Below are positions 10,512-57,945 of a DNA stretch of 64,000 bases, piece by piece; the stretch's first letter is position 1, and every line of letters begins with the position of its first letter. Made by a program: the position numbers and the translations under genes. The stretch spans positions 25,003,106 to 25,067,105 of the forward strand of contig JASXTE010000001.1 of NCBI GenBank assembly GCA_030280995.1, in the 5' to 3' direction. The stretch is from Hemileia vastatrix (lineage: Eukaryota > Basidiomycota > Pucciniomycetes > Pucciniales > Zaghouaniaceae). The notes under the pieces were generated by a model. That model saw only the letters and a list, made by a program, of their open reading frames with translations. It was not told the origin of the DNA and ran no database searches.

Positions 10512-10532
10512 ATAGGGTTCAGATATGGGATT

Positions 10533-11247: not shown

Positions 11248-11403
11248 AAACAAAAAAACAATAAAAAAATGTTAAGACATTTTAATTAAAAGTAAGGAGT
11301 GAAATAGAATAATAATTTTTTAAATTTTCTATAATACATATATACTGAATAAACAGTATTATTTTGATTTAAATTTTTTCAAGAGATTTTTAAGATCAGA
11401 GAT

Positions 11404-11685
11404 TTAATTATCTGGAATCCACTGGTCATATTCACTTGATTTATTTTTAAATCTCAATAGATACTCAACTCCCTTTTCTTTTGTAAGGTGTCTCTTTTTA
11501 AGTATCTTTTCAATTTCTGCTTTTTCAACTATTTCTTCAGGTTGCTGTTTATGCCTTCCTGATCTTCTTGGAAATAGAGCAGTATCATTAGAATGGTATG
11601 GTTTTATAAGAGAAATAGGAAATACTGGATGTTTTCTATCATATGGTACGTATAGAATAACCTCAACAGCATTATTACCAACCAT
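11404..11685 (-). pseudogene. Gypsy-1 chromodomain C-terminus of integrase
   Basis: Continues in frame after a TGA at 11704. The first half has the GPFxV-like linker and a basic HKQQPEE stretch. The second half fits a chromodomain: EIEKILKKR, then EYLLRFKNKS, then YDQWIP, close to the usual Y-L-(V/I)-K-W...W core, with F at the position often held by W. In chromoviruses this domain directs integration to chromatin with particular histone marks. The terminal stop follows DN at 11404. Confidence 0.8.
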
Positions 11686-11703
11686 CTTTTTAACTACAAA
11701 TGG

Positions 11704-12690
11704 TCAAATGAATGGATCCTTCAATTTAACATTACCATTTAAATTGAAATGTAGTGTTGAAATAAGGACTTCATCACCCTCTTTGAACATTTGTTCTTTA
11801 TGGGATTTATCCCATCTTTTCTTTTCATACTCAAACACCCTATTTATACATTCTTGAGCATGTTTTCTGCATAATTCCTGCATCTGAAGAAAAGATTTAG
11901 TACCTGGATGGATATCCAATCTAGGTAACTTATTAAGAGTTTTAGCAGGAGTATTAGGTACATAACCCAACCATAACTCAAATGGCTTTTTGCCAGTGAC
12001 AGAATGTACCGTACTATTGTATGCAAATTCTAAACCTGGGATAAGGGTTACCCAATCATGTGTGAATTTGTCATTGTCTTTAAAATTAAGACCAAAAGCA
12101 CAGTATCTTCTTATCATATCTTCTAAAGTTTGTATCATTCTTTCTGCTAGCCCATCAGTTTGTGGATGGTGTGCTGTAGAAAGTTTTAATTGACACCCTG
12201 AAACATCCATAAGTGATGTCCAGAACTCAGAAGTAAATTTAGGATCTCTGTCAGAAACTATTGCTTTGGGGAAACCTGCTATATTTAACATTTGTGTCCA
12301 CCATAAAAAAGCTAAGTCCTTTGCAGAAACCTCTTTATGAGTAGGAATAAATTTAAACATTTTTGTAAATCTATCATCAACTACCCAGCAGGAGTTATAA
12401 CTCTTATGTCCTGCTATTGGAAAACCTGTTACAAAGTCCATGTTAATAATTTCCCATGGAGCTTTTGGTTGCTCAATTTGTTGTAATAAACCAGCTCTTT
12501 TGCCTGTTAATCTTTTAGATTTTTGACAAGAATCGTATGTCTCAACATATTTTTGAACATCATCATACATGTTAATCCACCAAGCTGTGTTTTTTACTCT
12601 GGTTAATGTTTTATGGAAGTCAAAATGACCTTCTAATATATCATCATGACATATACTTAACGTTAACTCCTTCATTGAAGGGGTAATCAC
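11704..12690 (-). pseudogene. Gypsy-1 integrase core
   Basis: Zinc-binding N-terminus: the paired histidines in GHFDFHKT, and a C-terminal pair with C in DSCQK and S/T/C variation. The catalytic triad is visible: D in INMDFVTGF, D in IVSDRDPKF, and E in TDGLAERMIQTLE. The reading frame is shared with RT upstream and the chromodomain downstream. It is separated from RT by a TAA at 12754 and from the chromodomain by a TGA at 11704. The ATG used to begin this stretch is internal and not a real start. Confidence 0.9.
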
Positions 12691-12753
12691 AATTACATTA
12701 CTTAATTTTCTCCTGTAATATATAAAACCATCCTCAATGGAAAATTTTCCTTT

Positions 12754-15033
12754 TTATAATGCCTCTTTATACTTATTTGGTAATGTTTTTATTAAAACAT
12801 TCATTGAAGCATTAGATGGATCATTTAATATTGTAGTGAGTTTACTCAATTCAGGATCTGAATTATAATTATCAAGAATTGCTTGCATAAATTCATCTTC
12901 AAGATCTACAATATAAATGCCATAAATGTTAATAATCTCTGACTCAGGAACATAAGCAGGATTATAATCATTATTAGGAAGAGGTACTCTAGATAACAGA
13001 TCTACATTAGAGTGCAAGATTCCTGCTCTATGTGTAATAGTCATCCGTCCTCTGTATTCTTGTACAGCTAATTGCCATCTAAAAATGTGTCTATTAGGAG
13101 TTTTCATGTTTAAGAGTGACTTAACTGCATTACAGTCAGTTATTAACTCAAATTTTTGGTCTTCAAGGTAATAATGTAGCTTCTCAAGAGCCCATACTAC
13201 TGCCAAACATTCAAGTTGAGTAGCACCATATTTCAATTCACTACTTCTTAGAGTACGTGAAATATAGCATATTACTACTTCTGACATTTTCCCTTCAATA
13301 AGTTGTTTTTGATGCAAAGCAGCACCCAGACCAATAAAACTTGCATCTGTATATAATACAAAAGGTAATTGGAAATCTGGTAATCCCAAGATAGGAGCTG
13401 TCATTAAACATTCTTTCAACTTATCAAAAGCCTGTTGTCTTTCATTATTCCAAATGAAAACTTCTGATTTCTTTATCAGTGTGGTCAATGGTGCAGAAAT
13501 TGATTGGTAATTTTTTATATATTGTCTATAATAACCACACATGCCAAGAAATGATTGTACATCCTTTACATTTTGAGGAATGCCAATATTCTTTATTGCA
13601 GCCACTTTATTTTGGTCTACACATATTTGTAAGCCAGATACAATATGACCAAGCACTTTTAAAGATTCAAACCCAAATTTACATTTTTTCAATGCAAGGG
13701 TCATTTTTATTTCATCCATTTTTTGAAATACTTTCCTTAAATGGATTAAGTGTTCATCATATGTCTTAGAGAACACTATGATGTCATCAATGTATACCAT
13801 TGACCATCCCTCAATCATTTCATTATGGAATGTTATATCCATTAACTTCTGAAATACTGATGGAGCATTTTTTGGTCCAAATGGCATTCTGACATATTTA
13901 TAAATTTCCATGTGTGTTGTTATCAACAAAAAGTTCTGTGAATTCTTTTCAACAGGAATTTGATGGTACCCTTTATTTCCATCTAGGAAACTTATATATT
14001 TAGCACCTTTAAGGGTAGCATGTATAGAGGCGATCCTTGGCAAGGGATAAATATCATCTACTGTAAATGTATTTAATGCTTTATAATCACCGCACATTCT
14101 TGCTTTATCTTGTTCATAAGAAATAAGCACTGGTGATATTACACAATATTTTGGTGTAGTTTCAACCTTCTCAAGAATGTTCATTTTTAATAACATCTTA
14201 ATATTATCCTCTATGTCTTTCCTCTTCATTGGTGAAGCAGGGTATGGTTTCTTTTTAAGACTAGCAGGAATATTATCTATATTACAGGTTAAACTAATTT
14301 TCATTACATGATCTTTTACAAGGACAAGTTCATTTGTACCATGTGCAAAAGCCATTGGAAATGCTTTAATTAATTCCAAAATATTATTTTTCTCAGCTTC
14401 ACTTATCTGAGTGCCAAATGATGCTTTAGAAATTTCTGTTTCCAGAAGTTCCATCTCATTGGATTCTCTTCCTTTGCACGGAGAATTTGTTACTGACTCA
14501 ATGTGTAAGACTGTGTTAAAAGAATTTATTTTAAATTTTTTTTTACCATTCATGCCAATTGTAAAATTGTTATTAGCAGGGTCTAATTTTACACCAAATT
14601 TAGTCAGAATATCATTTCCAATGATAAAACAGTTACTACAGTTAGTATTATCCATTACTACAAAGTCACAAGTTACTCTTACATAACCATGTTGGTGTTT
14701 AAAGAAAACAGCAGCCTTGTATTTACCAATGGGGTGTAGCACTGATCCAAAACCTCTCCAATTTTTATTCTGAAGGGGTTCAAGCTTAGACTTATATTCA
14801 CTATCAATTTTCTGTAATGTATTAGAAGAAACAACAGAACCAGAAGCTCCTGTGTCCAATACTATATTAACATTTTCACTAGAAATGATAGCTGGAACCA
14901 TGATAGGTGTCATTTTAATGTTATCAGCTTGTATATCTTTAATGATTTCAGCATCTTCAAAATTCATTAAAGATTCATTTGAGTCTATATTTAATATTGG
15001 ATTTTCAAAGATGGATAAATAATCTTCCAACAT
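12754..15033 (-). pseudogene. Gypsy-1 protease, reverse transcriptase and RNase H
   Basis: An aspartic protease (DTGASGSVVS near residue 58) is followed by an RT with motif A D in SFLDGNKGYHQ, the RMPFGPKNAPSVFQ block and the YIDD catalytic box. RNase H has YTDASFIGLGAALHQ, the E in QLECLAVVW and the D in LITDCNAV. All key residues are intact over 759 codons. The stretch is in the same frame as gag, after a TAA at 15085. Family comparison with the copy at 62025-62030 shows GAT there, so the stop is a mutation, not a gag terminator. Confidence 0.95.
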
Positions 15034-15084
15034 ACAGACTTCATTTTCATCACTATATGAGATATTGCTATCATAATCACTTGA

Positions 15085-17226
15085 TTATTTACTTTTTTCA
15101 GTATCAGTTTCAGATTCACATTGATTTTCTACAATATTTATATTTTTCTCACATTTGTGACCTTTTACCCAAGGTTTGTTACACTTATAACAAGTATTTG
15201 TTTCATACTTTTTAGGTACTACAGGTGCAGTAGGTTTTTTCTGCTTCTCCTGAAGTGTTTTTGAATTCTGAGTTTTTACAGGTTCAATATTTTGTTTATA
15301 AGTGGAATACCTTGATTCATACTTATGGTTTAATAATATTTCATTGCAAATATTAATAAAGTCAGAATATTCAGTAACATTATTTGTTCTAGCTACAACA
15401 ATGTCTCTGACAGATATAGGTAATTTATATATTATCTTATCTTTCCATAAGTTAAAATCCATATTAGGCTCAATGGCTTTTAATATTTTATTCAAATTCA
15501 TTAAAAATACCATAGGTTTTTCACCATTCAACCGATTGTACCTAGTTTTCTCATAAAGTCTTTGCTGAGTAAGCCTGAATTTAGAACCTCCAAATTGTTT
15601 TTCAATAAGTTGTTTCCATTCAGCCTAAGAGTAATCTTTACCCTCACTCAAGACAGCTTCAAACCATAATAAAGCAACATCCTTAAATAAAGAAATTAAT
15701 TTTGATGTTATTTCTTCATCTGGTAACTTATATGAGAATTTCAAGTTGTCAATTCTTTGAATAAAATGTTGCCAATAAGAGCTGGCTTCCCCATCATAAG
15801 TTGGGTACTGATCTATCTTAGGACAGTTCCTCTGATTGGATTTTATTTCACTAATCTTAGGTAAATTCAACAACTCATTCACTTTTGATAAATGGTCTTG
15901 TATTTCTTCCTGTACGGATTCGTGACTTACATTTTCAGATTTGAAACTACCACCAGATGGATTTAATTGTGGTGGTACAGGGAAGGAATGAGATTCACTT
16001 TTGCAAATGAAAGGATTATTATCATAATGATTATACTTATGATTATCCTGGTTCATTAGTAGGTTGGCAGTTTCAATCTCAACTTTAGTTAATCTTTGTA
16101 GCAACTCAGAGACACTTTGATTTGTCTGGGCAAAAGATAACTTAGTTCTTGATTCAGTTTTTAAAAATTGTGTTTTATACAATTTTTCTAACTCACAGAA
16201 TTTGTTTGAAAGTTCACTATATTTGTTACTCAATGAATCATATTTAAGAGTGAGAGACAAATGTTCTTTCTCTAATTCTTTATTACGTGTTGCTAATTGA
16301 GAAATGTTTAATGTGAAGGATGAAATTGTATCACTAGTGAGCTTAACTGTCTGTTCCTTACAATCAGTCATTCTATTCCACAATGCTGAAACAATTCTAT
16401 GGACAGTTGGATTATTGTAAAAATATTCCATGTCTTCCTTTTCAATCCTCTCACTCTCCTGTGAACTTCTCATCTCACTAGTAGGTGGTTGCAACTGATG
16501 GTTAACTGTATTATCATTATAAATAGTACTGTTATTGTGGACAAAAGATAAGTCAGCTGTATCTACTCTAAAACCTAAATTTCTTGAATCCTCCTCTATT
16601 TTTTGCACAGATTTAACATCAATAGAATTACCTATATTGTAATTATCAGTATTGTGTTCAATCTGAGAGGGTAATCTACTTACCATGGGATAGATGCCAG
16701 TCCTGATTTTTGGTGCTTTTTTCCTTTGTAAGGGTGAGCTGAGGAAGTCAGATGAGGTGGTGGATCCCTGTTGCAACTGTGGCTGGTCCACTGTTGATGA
16801 AACCAGTCCCATTTCCATTTGTCTACCAGGATTTTCTCCTGGAAGTGAGTTGACCTGCCTTGGGTAGGGGGTTGCTGATTTGGCTGACTGGGCTGGCCTC
16901 CCTTAAACTCTGCCAATGCCTGATTCATCTGCTGAAACCCTACCTTGCAATTGTTTTGCAACTGCTCTACCTCTTTGAACATGAGTGATTTGGATTCTTC
17001 CAATTTCAGAACCTGTTTGGCCAGGTGGGACAGTTGATCCTGAAGAGGAGGAGACGTCTTTTTTATAGTTATCTTTTTTAAGAGGGTGTCCTTTTCCTCT
17101 ATACTCATGCTTTCTGCCTGGGGGTATTGTTGACCCTCCATGGTGATGTCCTGGAAAGTTTTTGTTAGCTTTAGACCTGGTATTATAAGCAGGCTTTTCA
17201 CTTACACTGTCCTGGGGAGCACTCAT
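15085..17226 (-). pseudogene. Gypsy-1 gag
   Basis: Starts ATG (MSAPQDSVSEKPAYNTRSK), the same as the copy at 59878. The order is a basic, Ser/Pro-rich N-terminus, a long coiled coil in the middle (about residues 220-300), a retrotransposon gag capsid region with YPTYDGEAS...WQHFIQRI, and a zinc knuckle of the form C-x2-C-x7-H-x-C (CYKCNKPWVKGHKC). Nonsense codons fall at 16903 (TAA), 15625 (TAG, W in the other copy) and 15085 (TAA). There is no frameshift across the whole region. Confidence 0.9.
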
Positions 17227-17718
17227 ATTGTTTAAAATGACAATATTTTACGTCTACAAAAGGAAAAACTGTATGGAATTAGTAGACAAAAGATATTAGC
17301 GATGTTATTACTAATAAAAAAGCAATGGAGCTTACCCTGAATTTATATCTTTATTTATTTAAATAAATTATAAGAAAATTCGAAAAATCTGTTAAAAATA
17401 TAATAATAAGTTCAACTAGACCTTTATAAGGGTGAATAAGTAGCTTACCAAGCTTTAACCAAATACCAATTTAATTGGGTGTTATATTGGTGTCCAAATA
17501 CCAAGTGAAATTCGGTTTATATTGGGTACAGTTACTACTGTAAATACCTAATTTTTATGATAAAAAATTAGTACAATTATTATAAGGATTCTTTTGTGAA
17601 GTCACTGAGTTATGATGACCCACCAATATGCAGTAGACCCAAATATTTGGTTGTTTTTGAGCTATACTAAGTAAAAATGACGTCCTAAGGCTTATACTAA
17701 AAAATCAACAATAATCAA
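17227..17718 (-). other. Gypsy-1 5' leader with a two-copy 36-bp repeat
   Basis: Untranslated leader between primer site and gag. It contains two diverged units of the type CCAAATACCAA...ATATTGG at about 17458-17530. The same pair is kept in the second copy at about 59574-59645, so the repeat is an old part of the family and could have a structural or packaging role. Nothing coding is seen. Confidence 0.6.
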
Positions 17719-17733
17719 GGAAAGACCCCCAAT
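17719..17733 (-). promoter_or_regulatory. Candidate primer binding site of Gypsy-1
   Basis: Two bases after the end of the 5' LTR on the minus strand the sequence is TGGGGGTCTTTCC, which could pair with a tRNA 3' end of the form GGAAAGACCCCCA. The second copy has TTTGGGGTCTTTCC at the same place (59370-59383). The tRNA species cannot be named from this alone. Confidence 0.65.
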
Positions 17734-18909
17734 TGTCAGTGTATCTAGTATTTAAGTATGATATAAAAGTATTTATTTATGGTCCTACTACTTATTGATA
17801 AATGATTTAGTGATTAAACCTCAGGGGAAGACTAATAAAATAGTTATACTCAAATAAAACTCACAATACTTGGATTTAAATGTGTGCTAGTGGTGGAAAA
17901 TAGATGAATAAAATATAGTTATAGCTTATATAAAGATAATATCAATTTATAATGGCTTTATAATATATCTTTGAATAATAATAATTGTGTTATTATGTTT
18001 GTTTGAATTGTAGTAAGTGAATGATGATAAATAACTGTCAAAATCCCTTCTTACTTATACCCAAATCCACTGGAGTGCACAGACCTTCAATCCAGATGAT
18101 GTCACTGCTATCCCCAGCAATTACAGCACTGTGAAGGCCCATCACCTCCCCATGGCTTCCACTTCAAGCAGATTCAACACCCAGACCTCCAGTAAGGACC
18201 ATCCATCACAATTAATAATAACACAGACCTATACCATATATAGAAAATCCAGATGAAAGCGGATACCATAAAGAAACAGGTAAAATAAACAATCAAAAAG
18301 AGATTTAATGAAACCAAAAGAATATAAAGGAAAAAAATAAAATGTCCAAGCCCCCAATAACATCCCCAAGCATCCATATTAACCCAGCAATGACCTCCCA
18401 ACCCATAAATACGTGAATATCCATCCAAGGAAGCAGATTAAGTTGTCCAAACTGAGTGTATGCGCCTGATATAGATGTTTATGCTTCTGTAGGTGCTGTT
18501 AATCCACTGATTTTGTCCATATGACCTAAAATAAGCAGAAAAACAAAGGTTATAGGCTATTAAGAGGCTAAAACCCACTTATAGACCTAAATATACATAA
18601 TATACTACATATTTCACTGAATATGAGATTTATGTATACATATAAGCTTATGTATGTCAATAATTACTTCATATCACTTAAGATAAGTATATTATGACTC
18701 CATTAACACCTTAATAAGTACTATTAGGCTATGTATAAGCTATTTAAACTACTATAAGTTATATAATAGTGTAATAAATATATATATATGTATAATAATC
18801 ATATATATAATTGTTTTAACCTTATTTTTAAGATATAAGCTTAATTTACTTAAGTTTATCTTATTTTAAGCATAAGAGATACTCAGTCCTAGGGATTTCT
18901 AGGCTGACA
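17734..18909 (-). repeat. 5' LTR of Gypsy-1, full length (1,176 bp)
   Basis: Bounded by TGTCAG and CTGACA. It is followed by the target duplication GGATT. It matches the truncated 3' LTR closely over 715 bp and the LTR at 57946-59368 with more differences, so Gypsy-1 inserted well after the two family copies split. It contains the hydrophobic frame at 18174-18428. Confidence 0.95.
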
Positions 18910-19665: not shown

Positions 19666-19829
19666 GTGTCAAACATATCTTCACATAAGAAACAAGTTTA
19701 CCAGATCCAATCACACATCCATCATCATGGATATTTGTAATTTCATTAATTTAAAACAAACTCAATTTACATCACACAGTGAATATTTTGAAGCTTTAAG
19801 CAAATACTTTGATGTTATTGAACAAAAGG
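19666..19829 (+). pseudogene. Copia-B gag, first fragment
   Basis: Reads CQTYLHIRNKFT...SEYFEALSKYF and stops where Gypsy-2 inserts. The upstream residues in the same frame belong to the inverted LTR, so the real gag start is lost. Assigned as gag from its position and continuation at 32876; the sequence alone is not diagnostic. Confidence 0.55.
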
Positions 19830-20910
19830 TGTAGAATAGACTCTTAAAGTTGCCTTTCTGTAAGCAGAATCCAAAGGAGTTGGATAATCAGAGAAAACCC
19901 TGTCCCTCTAAATGAATTTGTGAGTTTTTAGATCAATAAGCTTAACAGTCTACTTGATAATAATAAAGATTGAAACCCTGTTTAATTAACGCTGGTTAGG
20001 ATGATTGAGAAGTTTTTCTGTGCAAAACAACTGAAATGCAACAATAAAGTTACACCAGATACAATATTTTAAAAGAAAGAAGATTTAATGTTTTTAGATT
20101 TTAATAATTTTTGAAAACAGATATTATAAATGAGTTCCTGGAGTTGAGACCTTTCTAATGATACCCTAAATGTTAATGTTTAAGAGTTGTTGAGTAAAAT
20201 ATTTAAAGTGTTATGTAAATTTGTTATTTTATAAGGGTATTAAAAATAATTAATTATTTTGTTGAAAAAAGAAAAATATGAATAATGGTTGTGATGATCA
20301 TGTATCTGTCTCTTCTAAGAGATCTCTTTATGATACTCTGAGATGCCCAATTTTGAGTCTGAAGTGTCCTTAAGTATAACTAGTCACATGCCTAATTTTC
20401 CCTTCCAGAGCACAGCCAGAGCTCTTCCGGAGCTTGTCCCAACCTCCAGACTCAATCTAGAGCCTTAAATCTATAATAAAAAATCTAGAAAACTTAAAAA
20501 TAATAGATCTACTTCTCATTAACATTCTTAACAATTTTTCGTAGTCTGCACAGCTTTATTCACCCCATGAAAAATTATCAAAGTTATGTAATTTTTGAAA
20601 AACGTAAATAATTTAATAAATCTTTAGAAATCAATTAAAAATATAAGAAAAATAGTAAAAATTCAGGAAAATTTCCCAAAGGTTCTTGAGTTTCTTGAAT
20701 CTCATTAAATTTAATTTTGAGGCAGTAAAAAATCATATGACCCGTGAAATTAATAATTCTGACCAAACATTCATATCTTGACTTTTTCAACTTCATTTTT
20801 TGTTAATAATAAAAAATTTTAAGCTAATCTGGCTACTCCAATCACCGTCCTATTCCCAATAAATATTCTAAATTGACTTTTAGAGCCGTACTAAGATTTG
20901 GAATGCCACA
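19830..20910 (-). repeat. 3' LTR of Gypsy-2 (1,081 bp)
   Basis: Matches 31774-32875 along its length with scattered substitutions and small gaps. The inner end reads GAATGCCACA where the 5' LTR has GAATTCTACA. The moderate divergence puts this insertion earlier than copia-D. Confidence 0.95.
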
Positions 20911-20920
20911 TCCTTCCTCC
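20911..20920 (-). promoter_or_regulatory. Polypurine tract of Gypsy-2
   Basis: On the minus strand GGAGGAAGGA lies directly against the TG start of the 3' LTR, as expected for the plus-strand primer. Confidence 0.8.
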
Positions 20921-21072
20921 AATGAAGAATGTCCTCATTCTTTGAATTTTGCATATTTGTTCAATATATAATCCTACTTTTATCTTCTCCATATTCATCT
21001 CTTCATCATTTCTTTGACATCCCACTCCAACTACATAAAATTATTTCTACTTTTATAAGTACCATCATTGGT

Positions 21073-21731
21073 ATGAAAGATCTTGCTGTACCATGCAACC
21101 TCTGCAAGAAATATGAAGTTCCTTTCTTGATGTCCTTTCCAAATCCTCCTGGAAGAACCGCTCGTGGTCTCTGTTGCTCCAAAAAGGTTAAATGCATCCA
21201 TCCAACTTCTAAACCATCTTTCAATCCTATTTCTGGCCCATCTACTGCTCCAGCTCCTATTTTATCTAAGAAAAGATTATCAAAAATACCTGTATTCTGG
21301 AAAAGTATCAAGGCTAAAATTATACCACCATCACCAACTTCATCTCTAATTCCTCCTTCTCAAGATCCTTCACCCATACTTCCAGTTTCTCCTTTTTCTT
21401 TTGCCCAGACTGTATTTCCTGGGTCCCAATGTAAGCCTTTTAATAATTATTTATCTAGTCCATGCTAATCCCAACAATGCCTTTCCATCTTTTAGCTGTT
21501 AACATCACCAATTCTGATGATGTAGGTTGATTCCAAATGGACTATATAAATCATTATCCTAAATTTCATAGATATCTTTTTCTTGACTTTACTGAAAATA
21601 TAAAGCAAAATATTTTATCCTACTTCCAAGACACTTCCGCCAATAATCATGAAGATTTAATGAAGAGAAGATTGTTGATGCAGAGTTTTGATGATGATGT
21701 AGAAAAATTCCAGCAAAATTATTTGTTTTAA
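21073..21731 (+). pseudogene. Gypsy-2 antisense gene A: cysteine-cluster protein, two exons
   Basis: I do not recognise this family. Exon 1 is 21073-21430, the intron is 21431-21495 (GTAAGC to TTTTAG, 65 nt, phase 1), and exon 2 is 21496-21731. The N-terminus has a cysteine cluster: CNLC at about residues 8-11, then PNPPGRTARG, then CCSKKVKC. The middle is Pro/Ser-rich and basic. Exon 2 encodes a helical tail with NILSYF and DLMKRRLLMQSF. One nonsense codon (TGA at 21528) lies in exon 2; without it the protein would be about 197 residues. The cluster resembles a fungal Zn(II)2-Cys6 pattern with one cysteine replaced by F. It is paralogous to gene B: same order of parts, same intron position and phase, both starting GTAAGCC. 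It lies against the 3' LTR, opposite to gag-pol. Confidence 0.6.
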
Positions 21732-22375
21732 TCTTATATTTTAGTGATTTAGTAAACATGAATCCTGATCTTTTCTTCATATTAAATCGTTTTAAATCAA
21801 TTTCTTCGCAAATTTTCATTTTGAAATAAAATCTATTTACCTCATGATGATTCCACTACTGAGAGAAAGGTTTGAATCCCTTCAGACTCCCCTATACCAG
21901 TCTCTACTAATATGCATTAAGAGAGTAGGCTCTACACCTACTGTTCTGAATACTTGATTCCATTCTCATCAAATGAGCCAAATACTCCTGATTCCATTCT
22001 CTTTGATTGAGCCAAATACTTGATCCAAATCTCTCCATAAGGTCCTCCAAGCTTCATACCATTTGGCCTATTCAAAGCACACTACTTTTCCAACTACCAT
22101 ATCCTCCTTCAAAAATTTCATCATCACAACATTCAAATAGACCACCCTTTTAATAATTCACCTTTTAAATAATAATAATCACCATATTTTCACCATTTTT
22201 AGCACCATAATTATCATTTATCATCCATAATTTCATCATCCATCACCTCCACAAAATTAACCACTACATTTTCCAAATGAAAAATACACCCTTTTCCAAA
22301 ATTTGAGTACCAGTGATAAATTAAATAATTTGTTGATCATTAATTGAATAGCCTTCATAGAAAAAATTTGCATTA
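21732..22375. other. Spacer between antisense genes A and B
   Basis: Sequence rich in C, T and A with repeated short words such as GATTCCATTCTC and CAAATACTTGAT. No coding frame I can support. Confidence 0.4.
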
Positions 22376-22615
22376 CCAGTTTATATGTCTTGGTGGAAAG
22401 TGATAAATTAAAATGAGTGCATAGAGTTGCATAGAATATTCCAGTTTAAGGTCATGGGGAACCCATCTTGTAAATCTTTTTAAATTTTCCAAATAACAAA
22501 TGAATTGCCAGTTTAATGTCATAGAGGACAAAGAATGAGTGATTTTCCAGTTTAGGGTCATAGTGGACCAAAGAATGATGAACTTTCCAGTTTAAGGTCA
22601 TGGTGGACCAAACTT
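22376..22615 (+). repeat. Tandem CCAGTTTAAGGTCAT units upstream of gene B
   Basis: CCAGTTTA followed by (A/G)(A/T/G)GTCAT(A/G)G(T/A/G)GGA recurs near 22376, 22441, 22508, 22547 and 22587. The last three are spaced 39-40 bp. A further copy stands alone at about 24459. The array lies just before antisense gene B, so it may be part of its promoter. Confidence 0.75.
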
Positions 22616-22730
22616 TTGATTGATTCCAACATCCTTTTCTATCCAGAGTTCATATCTTTCCACCAGTTCCTTTTCTCTCAATTTTCAGGCCATTATCCAG
22701 TGTTTCCATCCAATTTTTAATCCTATCAAG

Positions 22731-23766
22731 ATGACTCCATCCAGCTATGTTGATTCTCCTGATCATGCTTGAAATTACTGCTGTTTTACCCATCAAGAAT
22801 GTGTTTATACCTTCAACCCTAAGAAACACATCTATAACAGAGCATGTTCTGCCTGCTTCATTATAAAAAGAAAATGCTTCAGCTTGAAATATGGTTCCCT
22901 GCCAATTCCTGCTACCTCTTTTGCCTCCTTCTGTAATCCCAATCCAAAACCATCAACTCCTCCTCCTATTCCTTCTACTTCCAACAATCCAGCACCATTT
23001 ACCCCCTCTGCCTATCTAAAAGTCTCTCCTGACCAAAACACACTGGGTCCAGCTGCTCCTTCTCTTCAGTCTAGGCTTGCTTCTAATCCTCCTAGGACTC
23101 CAATCGCTCCAAGAGCCATGAGAAAAACTCCTTCAATTAAGCCAATCTTGGATCTTTCCTCTTCATCTTCTACCGATTCTCCTAGCCTTGTAAAATTTCA
23201 CAAGCCCAAAAGATCTAGAACCAACAGTTTTCCTTCTTCTCCTATCTCCAAAAAATCCTCTAAAAGACCCAGATCTAATATCAATCCTCCTTCAAAAATT
23301 ATCAACCCCTTCACATCTCTAAAAAAACCAATTCCTATTCCCAGTAAGCCTTTTAGACTCGATCTTGACAGTGTAGATAGTGGTTAGTATCCCTTTTATC
23401 TTGATTAATTCATAATTTAAAAAAATTGACTCTTGCTCCATAATTCCAGTGTCCAATGCTTTGCCCATTCATTCATCAGCGTATGAGCTTCCTTTACCTG
23501 GTCCTAGTTATCCCCAGGTCCCTATTCATCTAGTTGGACATCACCTTTCGCCTAATTTCAATAATATTTTAACTTATTTTCACCATTATCCTCCTTCCGA
23601 TCAAACTGAGGTATGGTTCAGAGAGCAAATTTTGAGGGATCAACTAAAAATAGCCAACTGGCTTCAAATTTCTCAATACCAACAAATTGATTCAGCTACC
23701 CAGATAATCGACGATTCAGCTCCAAATTCTTCATATAGAGCTTCACCCAAAAATAATTCTTCTTAA
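22731..23766 (+). pseudogene. Gypsy-2 antisense gene B: cysteine-cluster protein, two exons
   Basis: Paralogue of gene A. Exon 1 is 22731-23343 with a TGA at 22770-22772 close to the start. The intron is 23344-23449 (GTAAGCC to TTCCAG, 106 nt, phase 1) and exon 2 is 23450-23766. After the stop come CCFTHQEC, then NPKKHIYNRACSAC and KRKC, giving C-x2-C-x4-KRKC at the end as in zinc clusters. A long Pro/Ser/Lys-rich middle follows, with basic runs (KPKRSR, KKSSKRPR) that would suit a nuclear signal. Exon 2 carries NILTYF and WFREQILRDQLK, matching gene A. About 310 residues if the stop is ignored. Reading past the intron without splicing ends at a TAG at 23385. Confidence 0.6.
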
Positions 23767-24866
23767 ATTCAATTTATTCCAGTTAACTAGCTGTCCTGAA
23801 TGGAATATAAAATGAAACATAAAAAATAAATATACACTAAAAAAAACTATTCTAATTTTAATTTTAATTTATTATTATTTTATTTTATATATTTATTTAT
23901 TTATTTATTTTTTTTATTTTTCTATTTATTTTTTATTTTATTTTATTTTATGTAAATGATGAAAATAATAAAAGGTTATAAAAGATTTTTATGAAATAAA
24001 ATTTAAAATTCAATTTTAATAATATTTTTTTTTTAATTTTTTTAAAAGAGAAATGATAAACAAATTTGAAATATAAAATTTATGAAATGTATATATAATT
24101 TTAAAAGATACGCCCTGGCCAATCGATGATCCTTACCCTCAACATCATACCCACATCCAAGTGCAACTTGATGTGGTTACACAATTTTGAGAAATTGAAA
24201 ATACAAAATTAATAAATGAAAGTTTTGAAAAACAAAATTTTATGATAATGATCACTGGGTGGGCTCCCTCCAATTTGTAAAAATGATTGGAGACCACCAG
24301 TGATCCTTCTCTTTGGTAATAATTATATATTAAATAAAATTTGAAAAACAGAAAATAAAGAAATAATAAAAGGAAACAACAAATGAAAGATAAGAAAAAT
24401 CAAATAAATTTGTTCTTTGTTTCTATTGATCGGCTTCGTTAGGGTTGGTAGTGCTCCAGTTTAAAGTCTTAGTGGACTTTTTGTTATAAAAAGCAAAGCC
24501 AGGATTCAACTAGTAACAAAGAAAGAATTATAACGAACATTGTGGGGTAATTGTGTATAGAGCAGCCAGCCCATCAATTACCCCCAAAATTGCCAATATT
24601 TAATTCAGAAGGTTCCCCTGTGAACACATCTACCAAAAAAAAATTTATCATTCCAACATATATTTTCCCCATAATTTTTGTCGCTTTTAAGAGTTTTAAG
24701 AATTTTGAAACAAATGTCTTCATAAATGTCGTAGAATTTCATTAACGGTTTCATCTTCTAAACCAAGTAAAAAACAGTAATATTTTTAATAAGAAAGTAG
24801 TTTATCCTCATTCCGGAGTTAAGCTTTAAATTGATTGTAGAAAAATAGTTTACCCTCATTTCGGAG
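23767..24866. other. AT-rich convergent 3' region with hairpins
   Basis: Lies between the 3' end of antisense gene B and the end of pol. 23850-24010 is low-complexity TTTAT. A hairpin at 24152-24177 pairs CCACATC with GATGTGG. An imperfect hairpin at 24250-24306 pairs CACTGGGTGGGCTCC with GGAGACCACCAGTG. These may help end the two converging transcripts; that is inference. Two copies of a TTTA(T/C)CCTCATT(C/T)CGGAGTTAA unit lie at 24792-24872. Confidence 0.5.
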
Positions 24867-26180
24867 TTAACTTTTGGCACACCTGGTGCCCCTAGGATAG
24901 AACCGTTTGACTTGATTGGCTGCTACCCTCTTCTTTAAAACTACTCCATCCAATTCTTCCAAAACATATGAACCACCAGACACCTGTTCTCTGAATTTAT
25001 AAGGTCCATTCCACCTATCTGCAAACATCTTGCCCCATTGGCTTTCCAAACTCCTATTATACACCAAAACCATATCTCTAGTCTTCAAAGGTTTCCTGAG
25101 CCTGTGTGCTAATCTTTCATCCCAATACCTTACTGACTGATTTCTGATTTTAATCATTCTAGAATATGCCTTTCCTAAGTATTCTTCTTTCTTCTCCAGC
25201 TGCATCATTCTTGCACATAACAATTCTTCAGTAGTGTTAACAGTATCCCAATCTACTCCAAGATATGATTCAGCCTCTAAATCAACTGGTAAAACTGTGT
25301 TTTGTCCAAAAACTAGTTTTTAGGGTGAATATCCAATCGTCCTTTTGGCAGTTATTCTGTCAGCAAATAATACTAAGGGTAAATAGTGCCTCCATTTTTC
25401 ATCACTTGTTCCACACATTTTAACTAATGCATCCTTTATAATTTGATGCCCTCTTTCAACCATTTCTTCAGCTTCAGGATAATAAGGGGTTGCTACCCTA
25501 ACCTTCAATCTAACCTTTTATATAGCTTCCCTCAATTCTGCCCCAAATACAGTTCCACCATCAACCGTTACCAATTTCATAACCCCATATCTATACACCC
25601 AATCTTTCAACAAGAAATCTGCCACATTTTTGGAATTTAAATTAATAAGAGGCTCTGCCTCTACCCGACCAGATAAATCATCTCTGGCTTCAATTAAATT
25701 TTTATATCTCCCCTCTTTTATATGAACAGCATCCAAACTAACCCTACCAAAAAGAGTGTTTTCACCGGTCGCATGTCTAGGTTCTTTTGACCTTAGATAA
25801 CTCCTTCTTTGACATTCTTCACATGACTGAATACATTTCTTAACAGCCATCTTCATACCAGGCCACCAAAATCTATCAGTAATTCATTTATATGTCTTGC
25901 CCATTCCCCTATGACCAAGATCTTCATGCAGTGCTTTCATAACCTACTCTTTCCCTTTCTTTTGAGAAACTACTACTTGAGGATTTGGATACCTCCTTTT
26001 CATCAATCTTTGTCCAGATATATAAAATGCTGGGGTCTTTCTTTTGATAGCCATCCAGTCATCATCATCACATTCCTCTGGCCTTTCCAGAGTCAACAAA
26101 TATTTTACCAAAACATAATAAAACCCAGTCTGTCCCCAGACCTCATCTTTAAAATCCAATAATATAACATCCAAGGGCAC
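24867..26180 (-). pseudogene. Gypsy-2 integrase
   Basis: All parts share one frame. The zinc finger ends with CIQSCEECQ. The catalytic D is in SLDAVHIKEG, the second D in TVDGGTVFG, and the E in EEMVERGHQIIKDAL. The C-terminus has the usual YWDERLAHR and DRWNGPYKF blocks and ends at CAKS. Nonsense codons lie at 25944 (TAG), about 25883 (TGA), 25518 (TAA) and 25320 (TAA). Confidence 0.85.
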
Positions 26181-26228: not shown

Positions 26229-27227
26229 TTATTGAGTATGATTGATAAACAAATAAAAACTGTCTTCTTTAAATTTAGAAACTTCAAATCTCTTTTGAAC
26301 CAAATTTTTATCAACCTCTTTACCATCCTTTTTAGTATCTCCTTCTTCATCATCATCGTCCAACCTCCACTTTACCAAATTTATATCTACACCCAACCTT
26401 TCTTTGACAGAATTTTCTAAACTTCCAACATATACACCATTAACCAATCTACTACCATCCCATACTATCACATCATTCTCATCCACATATACACTTTCCA
26501 CACTTTCATTATACTCATATCCCACATATTCATCCCACTTTATACAACCAGCCAGTTTAACCTCATGGGGGAGGTATGGAAAGTCTTCAGCTCCTTTAGT
26601 GCTGGCTTTAATAACAGATATATTTTCATCAAATTCTTCTGAGTCTGAATCCTCTTCAGTTGGTGGCCTTCTTGACAATCCATCTGGAATAGTAAATGTT
26701 TTTCCAGGCTTATGAACCAAATCAAATGAGAAATTCTGAATAAAAGCTACCCATCTAGTCATGGGAGCATTTGGTAAGCTTTGAGAATTGATCATCTGAA
26801 TTAAGAACTTTGCGTCCACTTGAAGTTCAAAGTGTTGTCCCCATAAAAAATTTTGCAATTTCTTCAAAATTTTTGCCACACCACAGAGTTCCAATTTCGG
26901 TTGAGAATATCTTGATTCCACCTCAGTAAAAACTACAGATTCATACCTGACTGGTCTAATATAACCAGCTTTATCCATCTGAGACAAGACCACCCCAGAA
27001 GCAATCTTACTTGAGTCAACTGCTAAATAAATCCTACCAGCATCTTTTCCATAATCCAACTTATGCAGGACAATATCTTCTCCAACCACCTTCTTCAACT
27101 TCACAAACGCCTTCTCACACTCTTCATCCCAATCCCAATCAGCATCCTTCCTAGTTAAACTTCTCAATGGAGCAGCCAATAAAGAGAAATCCCTAATAAA
27201 CATCCTAAAATAAACACATACTCCCAA
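26229..27227 (-). pseudogene. Gypsy-2 RNase H and connection
   Basis: Continues RT after a frameshift. FRMFIRDFSLLAAPL is the usual link between RT and RNase H. RNase H follows with D in LAVDSSKIASG, E in PKLELCGV and D in LQVDAKF. A long acidic connector (EEDSDSEEFDE, DDDDEEGD) leads to integrase. It ends at a TAA at 26229 and reads on in the same frame. Confidence 0.85.
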
Positions 27228-27239
27228 AAATCCTCTAAC

Positions 27240-28528
27240 TTAAGTAGTGTTTCTAGGTCTTGGCCAAGATTGAATTTTGTTGACTTTCTTCTTTGACATA
27301 ATTTGGCCTTCCCTACACACCACATGACCAAGAATCTCCAAAGCTGGAACACAAAAAAAAAATTAGAGCCAGAAATAGTTAAACCATCTTCTTCAATCCT
27401 AAACAACATCCTTTCCAAAGTTACTGCATACTCCCAAATAAACCTCGTAATACCTGGATTCTCTTCCAACACTTCATTATCATAATCAGTTGAAGGACAT
27501 TTAATTCCACCATCATCAATAAATATACCAGCATACTGTGGAATTTAATCTTGAAGAATCCAACCCATTTGTGCTTGATAAACATCAGCAGAATTAGTAG
27601 CACCTTGAGGTAATCTAGTCAGCTGTAACCGTCCAAGAGGAGTATAAAAAGTTGTCAGAGGTCTTGAATCCAGATGTAATTCTCTTTCATAATAGCCCCC
27701 CATAATATCACCCAAACCATAACACACTCTCCCAGAAAACGCTTCCACAAACTCCTCAGCACTAGGTGGTATACCAGCATCCTTTATTGTAACCCTATTT
27801 AATTCCCTGAGATCATGAACTACTCTAAGTTTGCCATTTGGTTTCTTGATACAAAATACCAGACTAGAATAACTTGATGATGATTGCTCATACAGTCCAG
27901 TGCAAATCCATTCTCTGACAACTTTGATATAAGCTTCTTTTAATGCAGCTGGAATTGGGATTGGTTTTTTCTGCCACAGTTCATGACATACCACAGGAAT
28001 CTTGTAAGGCTCCCCATAGGAATGCTTCAACACACCCCTATCCTCTTCTACAAAAGCAATGGCCTTCTCTTGCTTGACCATCACATCCAACAACAACTTC
28101 TTCTCTTCTCCAGACAACCAACCATCAGGTCCAAAATTAACAACACCTAATCTATCAAAAATGATTCTTGACATTTCAGAAAATTCAGGCAGATTCTTCA
28201 CCAAGGGACATTCATAAGGATCTCTTGATAGCCTTGGTCTTCTCAAAGGTTGATTGAATTCAGCAGGTAGCGGTTCATTAATTGGTTGGATTTTATTTTC
28301 TACTTTCTTATATTTTTCTGCTTCCATGTCTACATAAGCTTGAGGTAAAATATTAATTTTTGTATCGCCATTAAAAATTTCATCAAAGGAATTCCCTTCT
28401 TCATCAGAATAAGAATAAGAATAATCAGAAAAATGTTTTATTTCATTTTTAAATTTACCCTTCTTCACTTTTCCCTCGTCTAACTTTTCAACAAATTTTC
28501 CAACACCTTTAATTCCCTTATCCATCAT
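27240..28528 (-). pseudogene. Gypsy-2 reverse transcriptase
   Basis: RT blocks in order: PIPIPAALKE, FCIKKPNGKLRVVHDLRELN, motif A D in GLGDIMGGYYE, TRLPQGATNSADVYQ, and a catalytic box GIFIDDGG. The box is FIDD, not the usual YIDD/YVDD. A TAA at 27545 precedes the box. A ten-base A run at about 27351 (plus strand) marks a frameshift after TISGS. The start at 28528 is not supported by a promoter; it is only the first ATG after the spacer repeats, and this frame differs from that of gag. Confidence 0.85.
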
Positions 28529-28547
28529 AAATCCCCCGTAAAGAAAG

Positions 28548-28790
28548 TTGGCAGTTTATCCTCTTGTTGGAGGACCGTAATTGAATTATCACAAAAATTA
28601 TTTTTTTTTGTTTTAATTATACTAAGATTTTTTATAGAATTTTGATGAAATAATTGCAGTTTACCCTCTTGCTGGAGGTCCAGAATTGAATTATCACAAA
28701 AATTATTTTTTTGTGTTTTAATTATACTAAGATTTTTTATAGAATTTTGATGACCTAATTTCATTTTACCCTCTTGCTGGAGGTCAGAAA
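28548..28790 (-). repeat. 105-bp tandem repeat in the protease-RT spacer
   Basis: Two full units and part of a third; ATTATCACAAAAATTATTTTT recurs at a step of 105 bp. Each unit contains CC(T)CTTG(T/C)TGGAGG. On the minus strand the units stay open and would encode a repeated peptide containing HQNSIKNLSIIKT. The stretch 28792-29036 beside it is unassigned spacer. Confidence 0.85.
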
Positions 28791-29036: not shown

Positions 29037-29867
29037 CTACCACCCCAAAAAATGAGGGTCTTCATAATCCCCCTCTAAAAATATTTCACCAGAAGCTGTC
29101 CGTTTTATACACCGCTTCTTGGTGCATACACAACATTGACACATAGTGGTCACCCCAGGCCTAGTTTCCCAACCTTTATCTCCTGGGGGTGCTAGAGGCA
29201 TATGAAGCCTTCTCATATCATCCCCTGTAATCTCCAAACTAATACCTATACCAGATTGATAACCAATCCTGGCCTCAAAATCCATCAAAAAAGGACCACC
29301 AAGAACAGTTTTAACTGCCCCTCTGGCCACATAAAAGTGAACCTTACCAATAGATCCACAAATACCTAATTTGACATTCTCAGCCGTACCCATCAGATCT
29401 GTTGCATGCACTCCAATACCTCTGAGGTTTCCCCCAGTACCAGTTTTAATTGGCAAGCCTATATTTGTTGCTTGCTCTAAAGAAATCAAATTAATTTGAG
29501 ACCCTGAATCAACCAAGGCCTTTACCTCTTTACCATTAATAGTTACCACCAGGTAACCCAGGTGAGCAGAAAAATGTGTTTCAACATCCTCCCCAAACTT
29601 CTCAGCATTTTCACAAATATATTCCACCTCTCCAGCGGAAACCCGTCGCCTTATCAGATGCTTCTTCTGCTTCTCTGCAAGTGCCAGAATAATAGTGAAA
29701 AGCTCCCCCAAAGATAAGGGAATCTGAATTTGATTCACCCTATTCAAAATGTCTTCCATTTCATTTTCTTGACCAGATACTACTGGTCGCTTGTACTGGA
29801 CTTTCGATTTAATTACCTTGGCCCTGGGCACCTCTTGAGGACCCACATTGCCATCTTCACCCCCCAT
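29037..29867 (-). pseudogene. Gypsy-2 aspartic protease region
   Basis: Protease active site at VDSGSQINLIS, near residue 128, followed by a GxG region and VLGGPFL, the usual second half of retropepsins. It is in the same frame as gag, past a stop. Near the C-terminus a tight cysteine run (CQCCVCTKKRC) is notable; it could bind metal. It ends FLGW. Confidence 0.8.
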
Positions 29868-29921
29868 AATAACATCTTCACTACTGATAACCCTAGCTCC
29901 ATCACCAGCTTCTTTCTCTAA

Positions 29922-31598
29922 TCAAGATCCATCGCTAGTCTTTCTTTCTCCCTCCATTGGGATGGGACTGCTAAAACTTGGTCTGGGTAGTGACACCAAA
30001 GGTACGTCCTCCTCAGAATCCAAATCATCATCTGGCATAGGCTCACCATTTAAATCAAACTTGCCATAACTAGGAGGCCCCATATTGGCCATCCCCTTCT
30101 GTGTTCTATAAATTTTGTCCTTAGAGTAAGGTCTCAACTTTTTAATTGCCTTTCCAGGTTTAGCCTTTAGTTGGCTCTGTATGCTACTTTTAGCTTTAGT
30201 AGAAGCTGCTCTTCTAGCAGCATCGACATCATATTTGCCAGCCATACAGTTACCCTCCACTCTAACAACTGTTGCCAGCTCCAAACCACCAAAAGAAGTT
30301 GAAAATGTGGCCTTACTGACCTCTTTCTCTTTACCTTTATCAGCTTTACCACTGCTTTTACCATCACCATTTTTGCCACCCTTGGCATTATCATCATTGT
30401 CTTTTAATTCTTCAAATCGGGCTCTTCTTTCAGCCGCCATATTCCATCTAACCAAATCAGAAGGCACTTGTCCATTTCTGGACTTGATGAACAATCCATC
30501 AGGAAATTTATAGACCTTTCCATAAAATAACACTCTCCCAGCATCCAAATCTTTATCTAGAGTAAAACATACTCCAGCTCTGTGCCCCCTCCTATTACAA
30601 TAGGAGAACACCTTTGGCTCATCATATCCACCTCTATAACCACTACCACAATTACCATTCCCATTCTTCCTATTGCCAGAGAAGCGGTTCCCATTGCCAT
30701 TGCCATTAAAATTTTGACATTCATATCCTCTTGATTGATAGGAAGTAGACATCAATGAAGAAGCGATTGGGGCCTTATTAGCCTTCTGTGTCTCTTGGAC
30801 AAATATCTTCAATTGCTTTGTTAAATCGGCCAAGTGATTGACCATCTTGTTGTTCACGTTGCCTTCAACTTTTGCCACCGGTAGTCCCATCTGAGCCTTC
30901 TTGGCCTCTTGAGCTTTGACCATGATATCATTATTTTCTGACAAAACTTCACTAACCTTTCTGACACATTGAGTGCAGGACTCTTGATATTTTTACAAAG
31001 CCATTAATTTAAGATGAGCTTGAATATTCTCCTTAAGAATCTCTAAAGCCAGAAATTTTTGTTTTCCATTGGGTAGTTCCTTCATTAAGTCTTTTCTTGA
31101 GAGATCCTTCAAGATGTCCATTTGAATATCCCTACTGCAAGCTGACCAGAACAGATCCTTAGCTTGATTTTCATGAATCAATTTGTCCACCAAAATAAGA
31201 TATTCCACCACTTCATCAAACTCAACACATAGCTTCTTGAAGTCAGCCATGGAAGAAACACCCCCTTTTTCCTGCCAGTCACCAACAATTTTATTAAAGT
31301 CCAACATAGTAAATCTAACACCCCATCTATCAACCATAGCCTTTGAAAATGTTACCCAATCCTTGTCCTTGAAAGCCTGCATAGCAATGACCTCTTTTTC
31401 CACCTCCCTATCAGCAATAAAAAATCTAACCTGCTTCACCATGTTCACATGAGAAGCACCATCAACAGCAGCAGCAGCTTCATACCTGCAAATAAACCAT
31501 TTAACCTCCTCCCTATTAAACTTTGGGCCATCCCAAGAAACGATCCTGACAGAAGGAGTAAGAGGAAGAGAATAACCAGAAGCAGAAGAAGAAGACAT
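29922..31598 (-). pseudogene. Gypsy-2 gag
   Basis: Starts ATG (MSSSSASGYS). The capsid region (WDGPKFNREEVKWFICRYE, DWVTFSKAMVDRWG) reads to a TAA at 30993 and continues in frame from about 30944. An Asn/Gly-rich linker precedes a zinc knuckle, CNRRGHRAGVC. The first cysteine of the CCHC appears lost: the residue two before this C is F and the next is S. A long basic and acidic C-terminal part follows, ending at 29922. Confidence 0.8.
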
Positions 31599-31773: not shown

Positions 31774-32875
31774 TGTAGGATATACTCTTACAGTTTCCTT
31801 GCTGTAAGCAGAATCAGAAAAAGTTGGATAATCAGAGAAAACCCTGTCCCTCTAAATGAATTTGTGAGTTTTTAGATCAATAAGCTTAAAAGTCTACTTG
31901 ATAATAATAAAGATTGAATCCCTGTTTAATTAATGCTTGTTAGGATGATTGAGAAGTTCTTCTGTGCAAAACAACTGAAATGCAACAATAAAGTTACACC
32001 AGATACAATATTTTAAAAGAAAGAAGATTTAATGTTTTTAGATTTTAATAATTTTTGAAAACAGATACTATAAATAAGTCCCTGGAGTTGAGACCTTTCT
32101 AATGATACCCTAAATGTTAATTTTTAAGAGTTGTTGAGTAAAATATTTAAAGTGTTATGTAAATTTGTTATTTTATAAGGGTATTACAAATAATTAATTA
32201 TTTTGTTGACAAAAGAAAAATATGAATAATGGTTGTTATGACCATATATCTGTCTCCTCTAAGAGATCTCTGTATGATACTCTGAGATGCCCAATTTCGA
32301 GTTTGAAGTGTCCTTAAGTATACCTAGTCACGTGCCTAATTTTCCCTTCCGGAGCACAGCCAGAGCTCTTCCGGAGATTGTCTGGAGCTCGTCCAGAGCT
32401 TGTCCGGACCTCTGGACTCAATCTAGAACCATAAATCTATAATAAAAAATTTAAAAAAATTACACATGATAGAGCTACTTCTCTTTAATATTTCTAACTA
32501 TTTTTCGTAGTCTGCGCAGCTTTATTCATCCTGTGAAAAATCATCAAAGGTAAGTAATTTTTGAAAAACATAAATAATTTAATAAATCATTAGAAATCAA
32601 TTAAAAATATAAGAAAAATAGTAAAAATTCAGGGAAAATTCCCAAAGGTTCTTGAGCTTCTTGAATTTCATTAACTTTTATTTTGTAGCGGTAAAAAATC
32701 ATATGACCCGTGAAATTAATAATTCTGACCAAACATCACATCTTGACTTTTTCAACTTCATTTTTCGTTAATAATAAAATATTTTAAACTAATCCGGCTT
32801 CTCCAATCACCATCCTATTCCCAATAAATATTCTAAATTGACTTTTAGAGCCGTAATAAGATTTGGAATTCTACA
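31774..32875 (-). repeat. 5' LTR of Gypsy-2 (1,102 bp)
   Basis: Starts TGTAGGATATACTC and ends GGAATTCTACA on the plus strand. It is followed by the target duplication AAAGG. It contains a run of near-repeats of GGAGCTCGTCCAGAGC type (32372-32400), where the left LTR has fewer units. Confidence 0.95.
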
Positions 32876-33264
32876 AAAGGTATTGTTTTTTACTAAAAAA
32901 ATTCAAAGTTCTAATGTCTCATACTCTATTACTTTCATCCCTGAAAGACCTTTATGATGAAATTTGTGTTCCTCTGGATAACCATCCCGACTCAAAAGCA
33001 GTCAAATTTGAGGATTCCTGCAAGCTCATGATGACCTTAGCCCAGAGCAGAGCAGATTGGGAGACTTTCTCCTCAACTTCTACTTCTTCTTTGTCAACTG
33101 AACCCATTTTTAATGTGGCTGCTCATCCACAACATCAAACTAACTCTTACAGACCTCCTGGTGCTCAAAGACAATGTCATGAAGGCAAATTGACCACAAA
33201 TGCTTTTGCTCACTGTCCTTACATCCTTTACTCATCCAATTTTCCCAAAGACTCTACATTATGA
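32876..33264 (+). pseudogene. Copia-B gag, second fragment
   Basis: Continues gag after Gypsy-2: LLLSSLKDLYDEICVPLD, then LMMTLAQSRADWETF. A frameshift probably lies in the T/A runs at 32883-32895, because the frame across the insertion does not match. No zinc knuckle is recognisable. Confidence 0.6.
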
Positions 33265-57500: not shown

Positions 57501-57945
57501 TGTTAAGTCACTAGGACTATGTACTTGGTTATGTGTGAATGTATATAGTCTGGAGTCACAGCGTCTCCTGTTCTCCAGTTCTTTCTGGAGTTCTACAGGC
57601 TGACACTATGCTACAGGTTATGGGCTGTATCTGTGGGAATTGAAATGTTAGCTGTAAAAAACTCAACAATGTTAGAGACACTAGGAACATTAGTAGCCAA
57701 AAGACCCCCAGTGCATCTCTGAAAAAGACTCATCTATTTCTTGCGCTGGTAAAAAAAAAAATACCCAAATCCATTGCACCATCTCCAACCAAGAGCTATG
57801 AAGCCTCAATATCAACCCCTTTGACCCCCCTCTTACCCCTCTTCCTCTAGCTTCACTAGTAATTAGCCTACCACCTCAGCAACACTGGCCACACCTGATA
57901 ACCCTACCCCTATACCCCCACCCACCAAATCAATAGAATACTACC
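57501..57945 (+). mobile_element. Copia (copia-B family) 5' LTR, primer site and leader, truncated by Gypsy
   Basis: LTR 57501-57615 starts TGTTAAGTCACTAGG and ends GCTACA, matching the copia-B 3' LTR. GGTTATGGGC (57616-57625) is the half-tRNA primer site. The following 320 bp would be leader and gag start, cut at 57945 by the Gypsy-1-family copy. The rest of the element would lie beyond the window. Confidence 0.8.

Follow-up and report, generated by a model that had tools for sequence, protein, structure and literature searches.

Antisense, intron-bearing genes with a zinc-cluster-like motif in a Ty3/Gypsy retrotransposon of the rust Hemileia vastatrix

Two antisense genes between integrase and the 3′ LTR

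We analysed a 64,000-nucleotide stretch of Hemileia vastatrix DNA (assembly GCA_030280995.1, contig JASXTE010000001.1, positions 25,003,106 to 25,067,105; hereafter the window), which contains a Ty3/Gypsy retrotransposon on the minus strand in the order 5′ long terminal repeat (LTR), gag-pol, 3′ LTR. About 4 kb between the end of its integrase (24867) and the 3′ LTR holds two genes on the plus strand, termed A and B (Table 1). A first-pass annotation, made from the letters of the window, had placed two antisense genes here, and their position was borne out by the coordinates and by the layout of related copies. The cysteine cluster at the N-terminus, the basic Pro/Ser-rich middle and the C-terminal NIL(S/T)YF segment were as it had described. 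It is close to certain that gene A is coding, and gene B is likely to be so. In the window, both are broken by an in-frame stop, at 21528-21530 in exon 2 of gene A and at codon 14 (22770-22772) of gene B, and this copy of gene A lacks cysteines that are present in other copies.

The genome (747.6 Mb in 791 contigs) was searched for copies, each search listing the best 40 places, and the copies were assigned to three subfamilies: F1, that of the window; F2, a diverged young subfamily; and F3, an old one. We read 20 of the 39 F1 places besides the window, 15 of 40 for F2 (14 fetched copies and the one in stretch L011) and 16 of 40 for F3. Because L017 and L018 seem to be the same insertion, present in two contigs, we excluded L018 from the gene A selection, donor and open-frame counts, the within-subfamily counts and the gene B selection counts; it was kept as a row in the layout count and in the gene B donor and open-frame alignment. 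L011 and L019, in which the F1 gene A is partly deleted, were excluded from the gene A counts, and L019 and L017 from gene B exon 2 in the within-F1 codon test.

An LTR directly precedes gene A in 18 of the 20 F1 copies, and in 14 of the 20 the integrase lies beyond gene B with the genes antisense to it, although in one only 97 bases of integrase are left. In the F2 element L011/L029, LTR and gene A are followed by a repeat array and, in the opposite orientation, gag-pol, and the F3 element L033 showed gene A and pol in the same layout. The first-pass annotation had proposed to test whether intact homologues always lie in antisense between pol and the 3′ LTR; an antisense gene was found there in F1 and in these F2 and F3 elements. 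The arrangement of LTR, gene A and pol belongs to the element itself; support for it is good in F1 and comes from a single element in each of F2 and F3. Both genes are also present in the F3 stretch L032. With the F2 query, all 40 scored places (of 1503 first-look candidates) were 99-100% identical, and F2 is a recently amplified subfamily that carries an open gene A.

The positions of the gene A start codon, splice donor and acceptor align across the subfamilies, while the intron varies in length (65 nt in the window, 85 nt in F2) and is barely alignable in sequence. The donor GT was retained in 15 of 18 F1 rows, window included, and the splice signals in all 15 F2 copies read. By our own reading, gene A is mostly broken in F1, where 2 of 17 copies have both exons open with ATG and GT-AG, and in F2 both exons are open, with the intron present, in 13 of 15. 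Gene B was open in 2 of 20 F1 rows besides the window (own reading). Its donor GT was retained in 21 of 21 rows at the first site and, window included, in 19 of 21 at a second phase-1 donor, GTTAGT at 23383. The phase-1 introns with a GTAAGCC donor proposed earlier were thus supported by the sequence of gene A; for gene B the phase held, and the second donor leaves the choice of GTAAGCC uncertain.

Table 1. Features of the element in the window (positions are those of the window).
Feature	Position	Strand	Basis
Gene A exon 1, zinc cluster and basic Pro/Ser-rich middle	21073..21430 (358 nt, phase 1)	+	dN/dS; Pfam Zn_clus in the young subfamily
Gene A intron, phase 1, GTAAGC...TTAG	21431..21495	+	matching position in other subfamilies
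Gene A exon 2, predicted helical hairpin	21496..21731	+	dN/dS in spliced frame; structure model
Four copies of the CCAGTTTANNGTC...GGAC stem-loop repeat before gene B	22441..22607	+	pattern scan, covariation
Gene B exon 1, zinc cluster and Pro/Ser-rich basic middle	22731 (ATG)..23343 (613 nt, phase 1)	+	dN/dS against L032
Gene B intron	23344..23449	+	alignment of copies; alternative phase-1 donor at 23383
Gene B exon 2	23450..23766 (stop 23764-23766)	+	dN/dS against L032
Single stem-loop repeat near the end of pol	24456..24477	+	also present in F2 (L029 654)
3′ LTR	19830..20910	-	pairwise identity to 5′ LTR; ends read by eye
Probable polypurine tract (sense strand), immediately before 3′ LTR	20911..20923	-	sequence reading
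Integrase, several reading-frame pieces	24867..25883	-	Pfam Integrase_H2C2, 36.5 bits in 25521-25883
RNase H and reverse transcriptase pieces of pol	26229..28555	-	Pfam RT_RNaseH; RVT_1 under cut-off; rust reverse transcriptase relatives
Aspartic protease and gag pieces	29037..30992	-	Pfam Asp_protease_2 and RVP for protease; gag by position only
5′ LTR	31774..32875	-	pairwise identity; ends read by eye

Selection on the reading frames

The ratio of nonsynonymous to synonymous divergence (dN/dS) of gene A was estimated by counting codons in nucleotide alignments, and all six frames were run for control. In exon 1, the predicted frame was the lowest of the six, with 0.23 between F1 and F3 (0.18 net of within-group differences), 0.18 between F1 and F2 and 0.27 between F2 and F3, and the other two forward frames gave 0.80-1.21. 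In exon 2, the spliced frame gave 0.13 (net 0.08), 0.07 and 0.11 for the same pairs, compared with 0.81-6.0 in the other forward frames. The reverse frame that shares third codon positions gave 0.41-0.49 in exon 1 and 0.29-0.44 in exon 2, in line with its being a shadow of the predicted frame; the remaining reverse frames gave 0.57-3.9. Since synonymous divergence was saturated, uncorrected ratios (pN/pS) with a codon bootstrap are the safer measure. These were 0.43-0.51 for exon 1, 0.19-0.25 for exon 2 and 0.32-0.40 for both exons in five pairs (bootstrap 95% limits 0.25-0.51), and the +1 frame gave 0.82-2.12.

For gene B, the zinc region (codons 1-76, 61 usable on average) had a dN/dS of 0.06 against the F3 copy L032, with 0.61 and 1.28 in the other forward frames and 0.22 in the shadow frame. 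The rest of exon 1 gave 0.44 (other forward frames 0.97-1.12), and exon 2 gave 0.26 over 72 codons in a protein-guided alignment without frame controls. As a yardstick, a protein-guided count for gag-pol gave 0.05-0.31. These results indicated purifying selection between subfamilies, strongest in the predicted frames; the first-pass annotation had named a lack of purifying selection among copies as grounds for giving up its reading.

Chance open frames in repetitive DNA might be suspected, since the window copies carry stops and within-subfamily variation taken alone gives no selection signal. Frame-dependent selection between subfamilies, however, indicates that genes A and B are more than chance, as do the conserved intron position, the open young copies and the zinc-cluster match described below. 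We consider this explanation refuted for gene A and nearly so for gene B, which leaves it extremely improbable.

Predicted products and possible roles

The cysteines of F2 gene A exon 1 are spaced CX2CX6C-X12-CX2CX6C. The consensus of the fungal Zn(II)2Cys6 cluster (PF00172) has six cysteines spaced CX2CX6CX5-12CX2CX6-8C, and F2 gene A agrees with it. Its product matched Pfam Zn_clus (PF00172) with 25.8 bits against a gathering cut-off of 21. The second half alone scored 22.1 and aligned to the start of the profile (residues 31-45 to profile positions 1-15), and the first half alone had no Zn_clus match, so that the basic half does not come first as in PF00172. The best sequence match of the gene A cluster in the PDB was PPR1 (E 0.0079), with GAL4 matching only at E 0.36 or worse, and in the PDB alignments the basic half comes first in both. 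The CX2CX6C halves of gene A are therefore in swapped order. Gene A resembles these fungal regulators in its spacing and its above-threshold profile match, but differs from them in having the basic half second, in a length of about 200 residues and in being carried by a retrotransposon. In gene B, the cluster reads CX2CX6C-X14-CX2CX6C in many F1 copies, and the X14 between the halves falls outside the consensus range of 5-12. The products of A and B may bind zinc, and are predicted to bind nucleic acid through a Zn2Cys6-like cluster. The earlier description of zinc-cluster-like proteins was upheld by Pfam in F2 gene A, whereas the window copy of gene A had no Pfam match.

For exon 2 of gene A (21531-21728), a single-sequence structure model predicted two long helices, with a mean predicted local distance difference test score (pLDDT) of 82; Foldseek returned no match to this model at E 0.001. 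The two genes had been called paralogous from their shared motifs and matching phase-1 introns. When their profiles were compared with HHalign, the exon 1 clusters paired in register at E 0.0033 with a probability of 9.8%, and the NIL(S/T)YF segments of exon 2 paired at E 0.029 with a probability of 1.7%; mismatched exon pairs gave E 0.23 and 0.93. Since the layout, the intron phase and the two weak profile matches all point the same way, we regard paralogy as probable, although the HHalign probabilities themselves are low.

A zinc cluster of this kind raises the question of whether A and B were copied from a transcription factor of the host and are carried as chance passengers with no role in the element. 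In Pfam, Zn_clus is classed as a fungal domain; it is common in host regulators, and the introns resemble those of host genes. Passengers, however, would not be expected to show between-subfamily selection in the range of gag-pol, nor a gene A that is open in 13 of 15 young copies. In addition, no single-copy host homologue was seen among the best 40 places per search, where hundreds of element copies could mask one; the first-pass annotation had set out homologues occurring mostly as ordinary host genes as a finding that would count against it. Capture from the host is accordingly improbable in our judgement.

A 22-nt repeat, CCAGTTTANNGTCNTNGTGGAC, with a CTC...GAG variant, recurs through the element, beside genes A and B and singly in pol. 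Across five element stretches, drawn from F1, F2 and F3, we found 39 instances, every one on the plus strand like genes A and B. In the window they start at 22508, 22547, 22587, 24456, 24797, 24845, 26552, 28551 and 28656, and the rest of the window, including its other Gypsy elements, contained none. The F2 array after gene A (L011 8890-9630) has 12 repeats with up to 3 mismatches, near-invariant cores and variable spacers. Two column pairs of the repeat covary, the inner pair being G-C in 20, C-G in 17 and otherwise in 2. The covariation score was 0.36 on 30 distinct instances, compared with 0.11 in shuffles, of which none in 500 scored as high, and 0-0.21 when the partners were slid. Two of five covariation measures (pairs altered at both positions and additional pair types) did not rise above shuffles, and most of the inner-pair signal comes from a single division of the instances into two classes; at the outer pair there is variation inside a class, and 11 of 30 instances are unpaired there. 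The pattern points to a stem-loop or palindromic site. Rfam gave no match up to E 0.1 in 20905-24866. The idea that the repeats inside pol lie in different reading frames proved wrong: all three in the window share one frame, so a protein-level constraint could explain those three.

Such repeats could serve as packaging or Gag-binding sites of the sense RNA, unconnected to A and B. Their paired columns covary with different letters, as in an RNA stem, they occur also inside pol, and three A-C mismatches are G-U pairs when read on the sense strand. That they are densest beside gene A or B, and lacking in the rest of the window with its other Gypsy elements, speaks against this explanation, which we regard as quite possible but somewhat short of probable.

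A 105-nt tandem repeat (28551-28760) occupies the pol linker between protease and reverse transcriptase (RT); each unit opens with the stem-loop motif of the pol type and codes for LQQE(D/G)KL. Blocks with hairpin potential lie between gene B and pol (window 24143-24199 and 24544-24585; L029 about 370-430 and 745-787), are by eye letter-identical between F1 and F2 while the surrounding DNA diverges, and belong to a region that folds better than shuffles (z -2.55).

Antisense accessory genes are already known from plant elements, the Retand and Grande elements being the closest published counterparts. Nearly all clusters of the Retand lineage of Gypsy are described in PMC11963269 as having antisense TRP28 open reading frames (ORFs) between pol and the 3′ LTR; these ORFs are predicted to bind DNA, and tandem repeat arrays lie in the same region in about half. 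The rust element likewise has antisense genes predicted to bind DNA, and repeat arrays, at the same place. It differs in its fungal host, and the pieces of A and B scanned did not match TRP28 (PF04195); unlike the intron-bearing rust genes, those of Retand are treated in a main text that does not use the word intron (PMC11963269). Maize Grande carries, as the same text reports, an antisense accessory gene in the 3′ internal region with a nuclear protein and its own promoter (PMC11963269). The rust element has an antisense accessory gene in that region too, for which a promoter and nuclear location are predicted, but gene A has a zinc cluster, a feature that does not appear in the brief description of the plant element (PMC11963269). 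HBZ of HTLV-1 is mentioned there as an antisense gene of a retroelement (PMC11963269). The rust genes share with it an antisense, intron-bearing arrangement near the 3′ LTR and, as predicted for them, a nuclear product. HBZ is spliced, is read from the 3′ LTR side and yields a nuclear bZIP product; gene A, in contrast, encodes a zinc cluster, and HTLV-1 is a retrovirus. No antisense LTR-retrotransposon gene of a fungus or a rust was found in the open-licence literature, seen mostly as listings, which agrees with the earlier remark that the type was not known in fungi. The main text of PMC12210899 does not contain the word antisense.

Collectively, we consider it fairly probable that A and B are antisense accessory genes of a Gypsy lineage, kept by selection, that encode nucleic-acid-binding regulators of the element; the regulatory role itself is an inference. 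The earlier reading of zinc-cluster-like genes carried by the element was in this respect supported. Each gene would be transcribed from its own promoter, which for gene A would lie beside the polypurine tract and the 3′ LTR, and then spliced. The products would be nuclear and bind nucleic acid through the cluster with swapped halves, might pair through the helical exon 2 domain, and could regulate the element, perhaps through the stem-loop repeats on the same strand. The intron would survive retrotransposition because the sense genomic RNA carries its reverse complement, which the spliceosome does not remove; from established splicing biology, the persistence of the gene A intron can be explained by its antisense position.

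Several results weigh against this interpretation. In three of the four F3 stretches read, no pol was recognised, neither in the 8 kb of L032 nor downstream of two further gene A copies in L030 and L031. The gene A donor GT was retained in 7 of 16 F3 copies. Gene B had no Pfam match, was absent from the one F2 element examined (L011/L029) and was not found in the F3 element L033. Its selection test rests on one F3 copy, L032, and in the rest of its exon 1 the reverse shadow frame (0.50) was nearly as low as the predicted one. The protein database held no homologue of A or B, although rust RT relatives were present: none of 148 candidates reached E 0.1 for gene B exon 1 and none of 2199 reached E 0.01 for an alignment of six gene A exon 1 sequences, whereas the RT control gave 114 proteins at E 1e-20 among 1435 candidates (named relatives were nearly all from Austropuccinia psidii, with one from Cronartium and three from Puccinia). 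Within F1, the gene A ratios were 0.93 for exon 1 and 0.74 for exon 2, and the F1 copies themselves decay neutrally or nearly so. The within-F1 codon test alone showed no selection; most differences among the copies are singletons, the pattern expected if they decayed after a single burst. Within F3, the ratios were 0.65 and 0.53. The difference between these values and those between subfamilies fits decay after insertion combined with selection on the lineages that spread.

As an alternative, the product of the antisense genes or their antisense RNA could lower the element's own expression and so control its copy number, in the way that HBZ restrains its own provirus and p22 of Ty1 restrains Ty1. 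The antisense position beside the 3′ LTR, the intron and the DNA-binding type of domain are in line with such self-restraint, and selection on the protein sequence argues that antisense RNA alone would be insufficient. We hold self-restraint to be possible, while leaning against it. A more specific form of the accessory-gene interpretation is a two-part circuit, in which self-encoded, antisense, intron-bearing zinc-cluster proteins with swapped halves would recognise the covarying stem-loop sites in DNA or genomic RNA and link antisense expression to how the sense genome is transcribed, exported or packaged; this is a speculative and rather unlikely proposal.

If the accessory-gene interpretation is true, a fungal Gypsy lineage would have arrived independently, by evolution, at the kind of antisense accessory gene described for Retand, Grande and HTLV-1, here with a fungal zinc cluster in swapped order. 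It would offer a testable system for retroelement self-regulation in rust genomes, which are large and rich in repeats, and would illustrate clearly how a gene of a retroelement can keep its intron, namely by being antisense to the genomic RNA.

The host element and its surroundings

The two LTRs of the window element are 91.3% identical, and a target-site duplication AAAGG, read by eye, flanks them at 19825-19829 and 32876-32880, which indicates an old insertion with both ends retained. Pfam matches to protease, RT, RNase H and integrase are collinear in this order on the minus strand, as in Ty3/Gypsy elements. RVT_1 and rve scored under the Pfam cut-off in this decayed copy, and the remaining integrase pieces had no Pfam match. 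The window also holds another LTR element (Gypsy-1) at 10532-18356 and an inverted relative at 57944-63979.

Synonymous divergence between F1 and F2 was uneven along the element: 0.39 in RT, 0.44 in protease, 0.58 in the middle of integrase, 0.62 in gag, 0.80 in RNase H, 0.98 at the end of integrase and 2.0-2.9 in gene A. Recombination between subfamilies is perhaps the cause. In the F3 stretch L030, the reverse strand contains, from 1062, an open frame of 357 amino acids that may resemble a Harbinger-type transposase.
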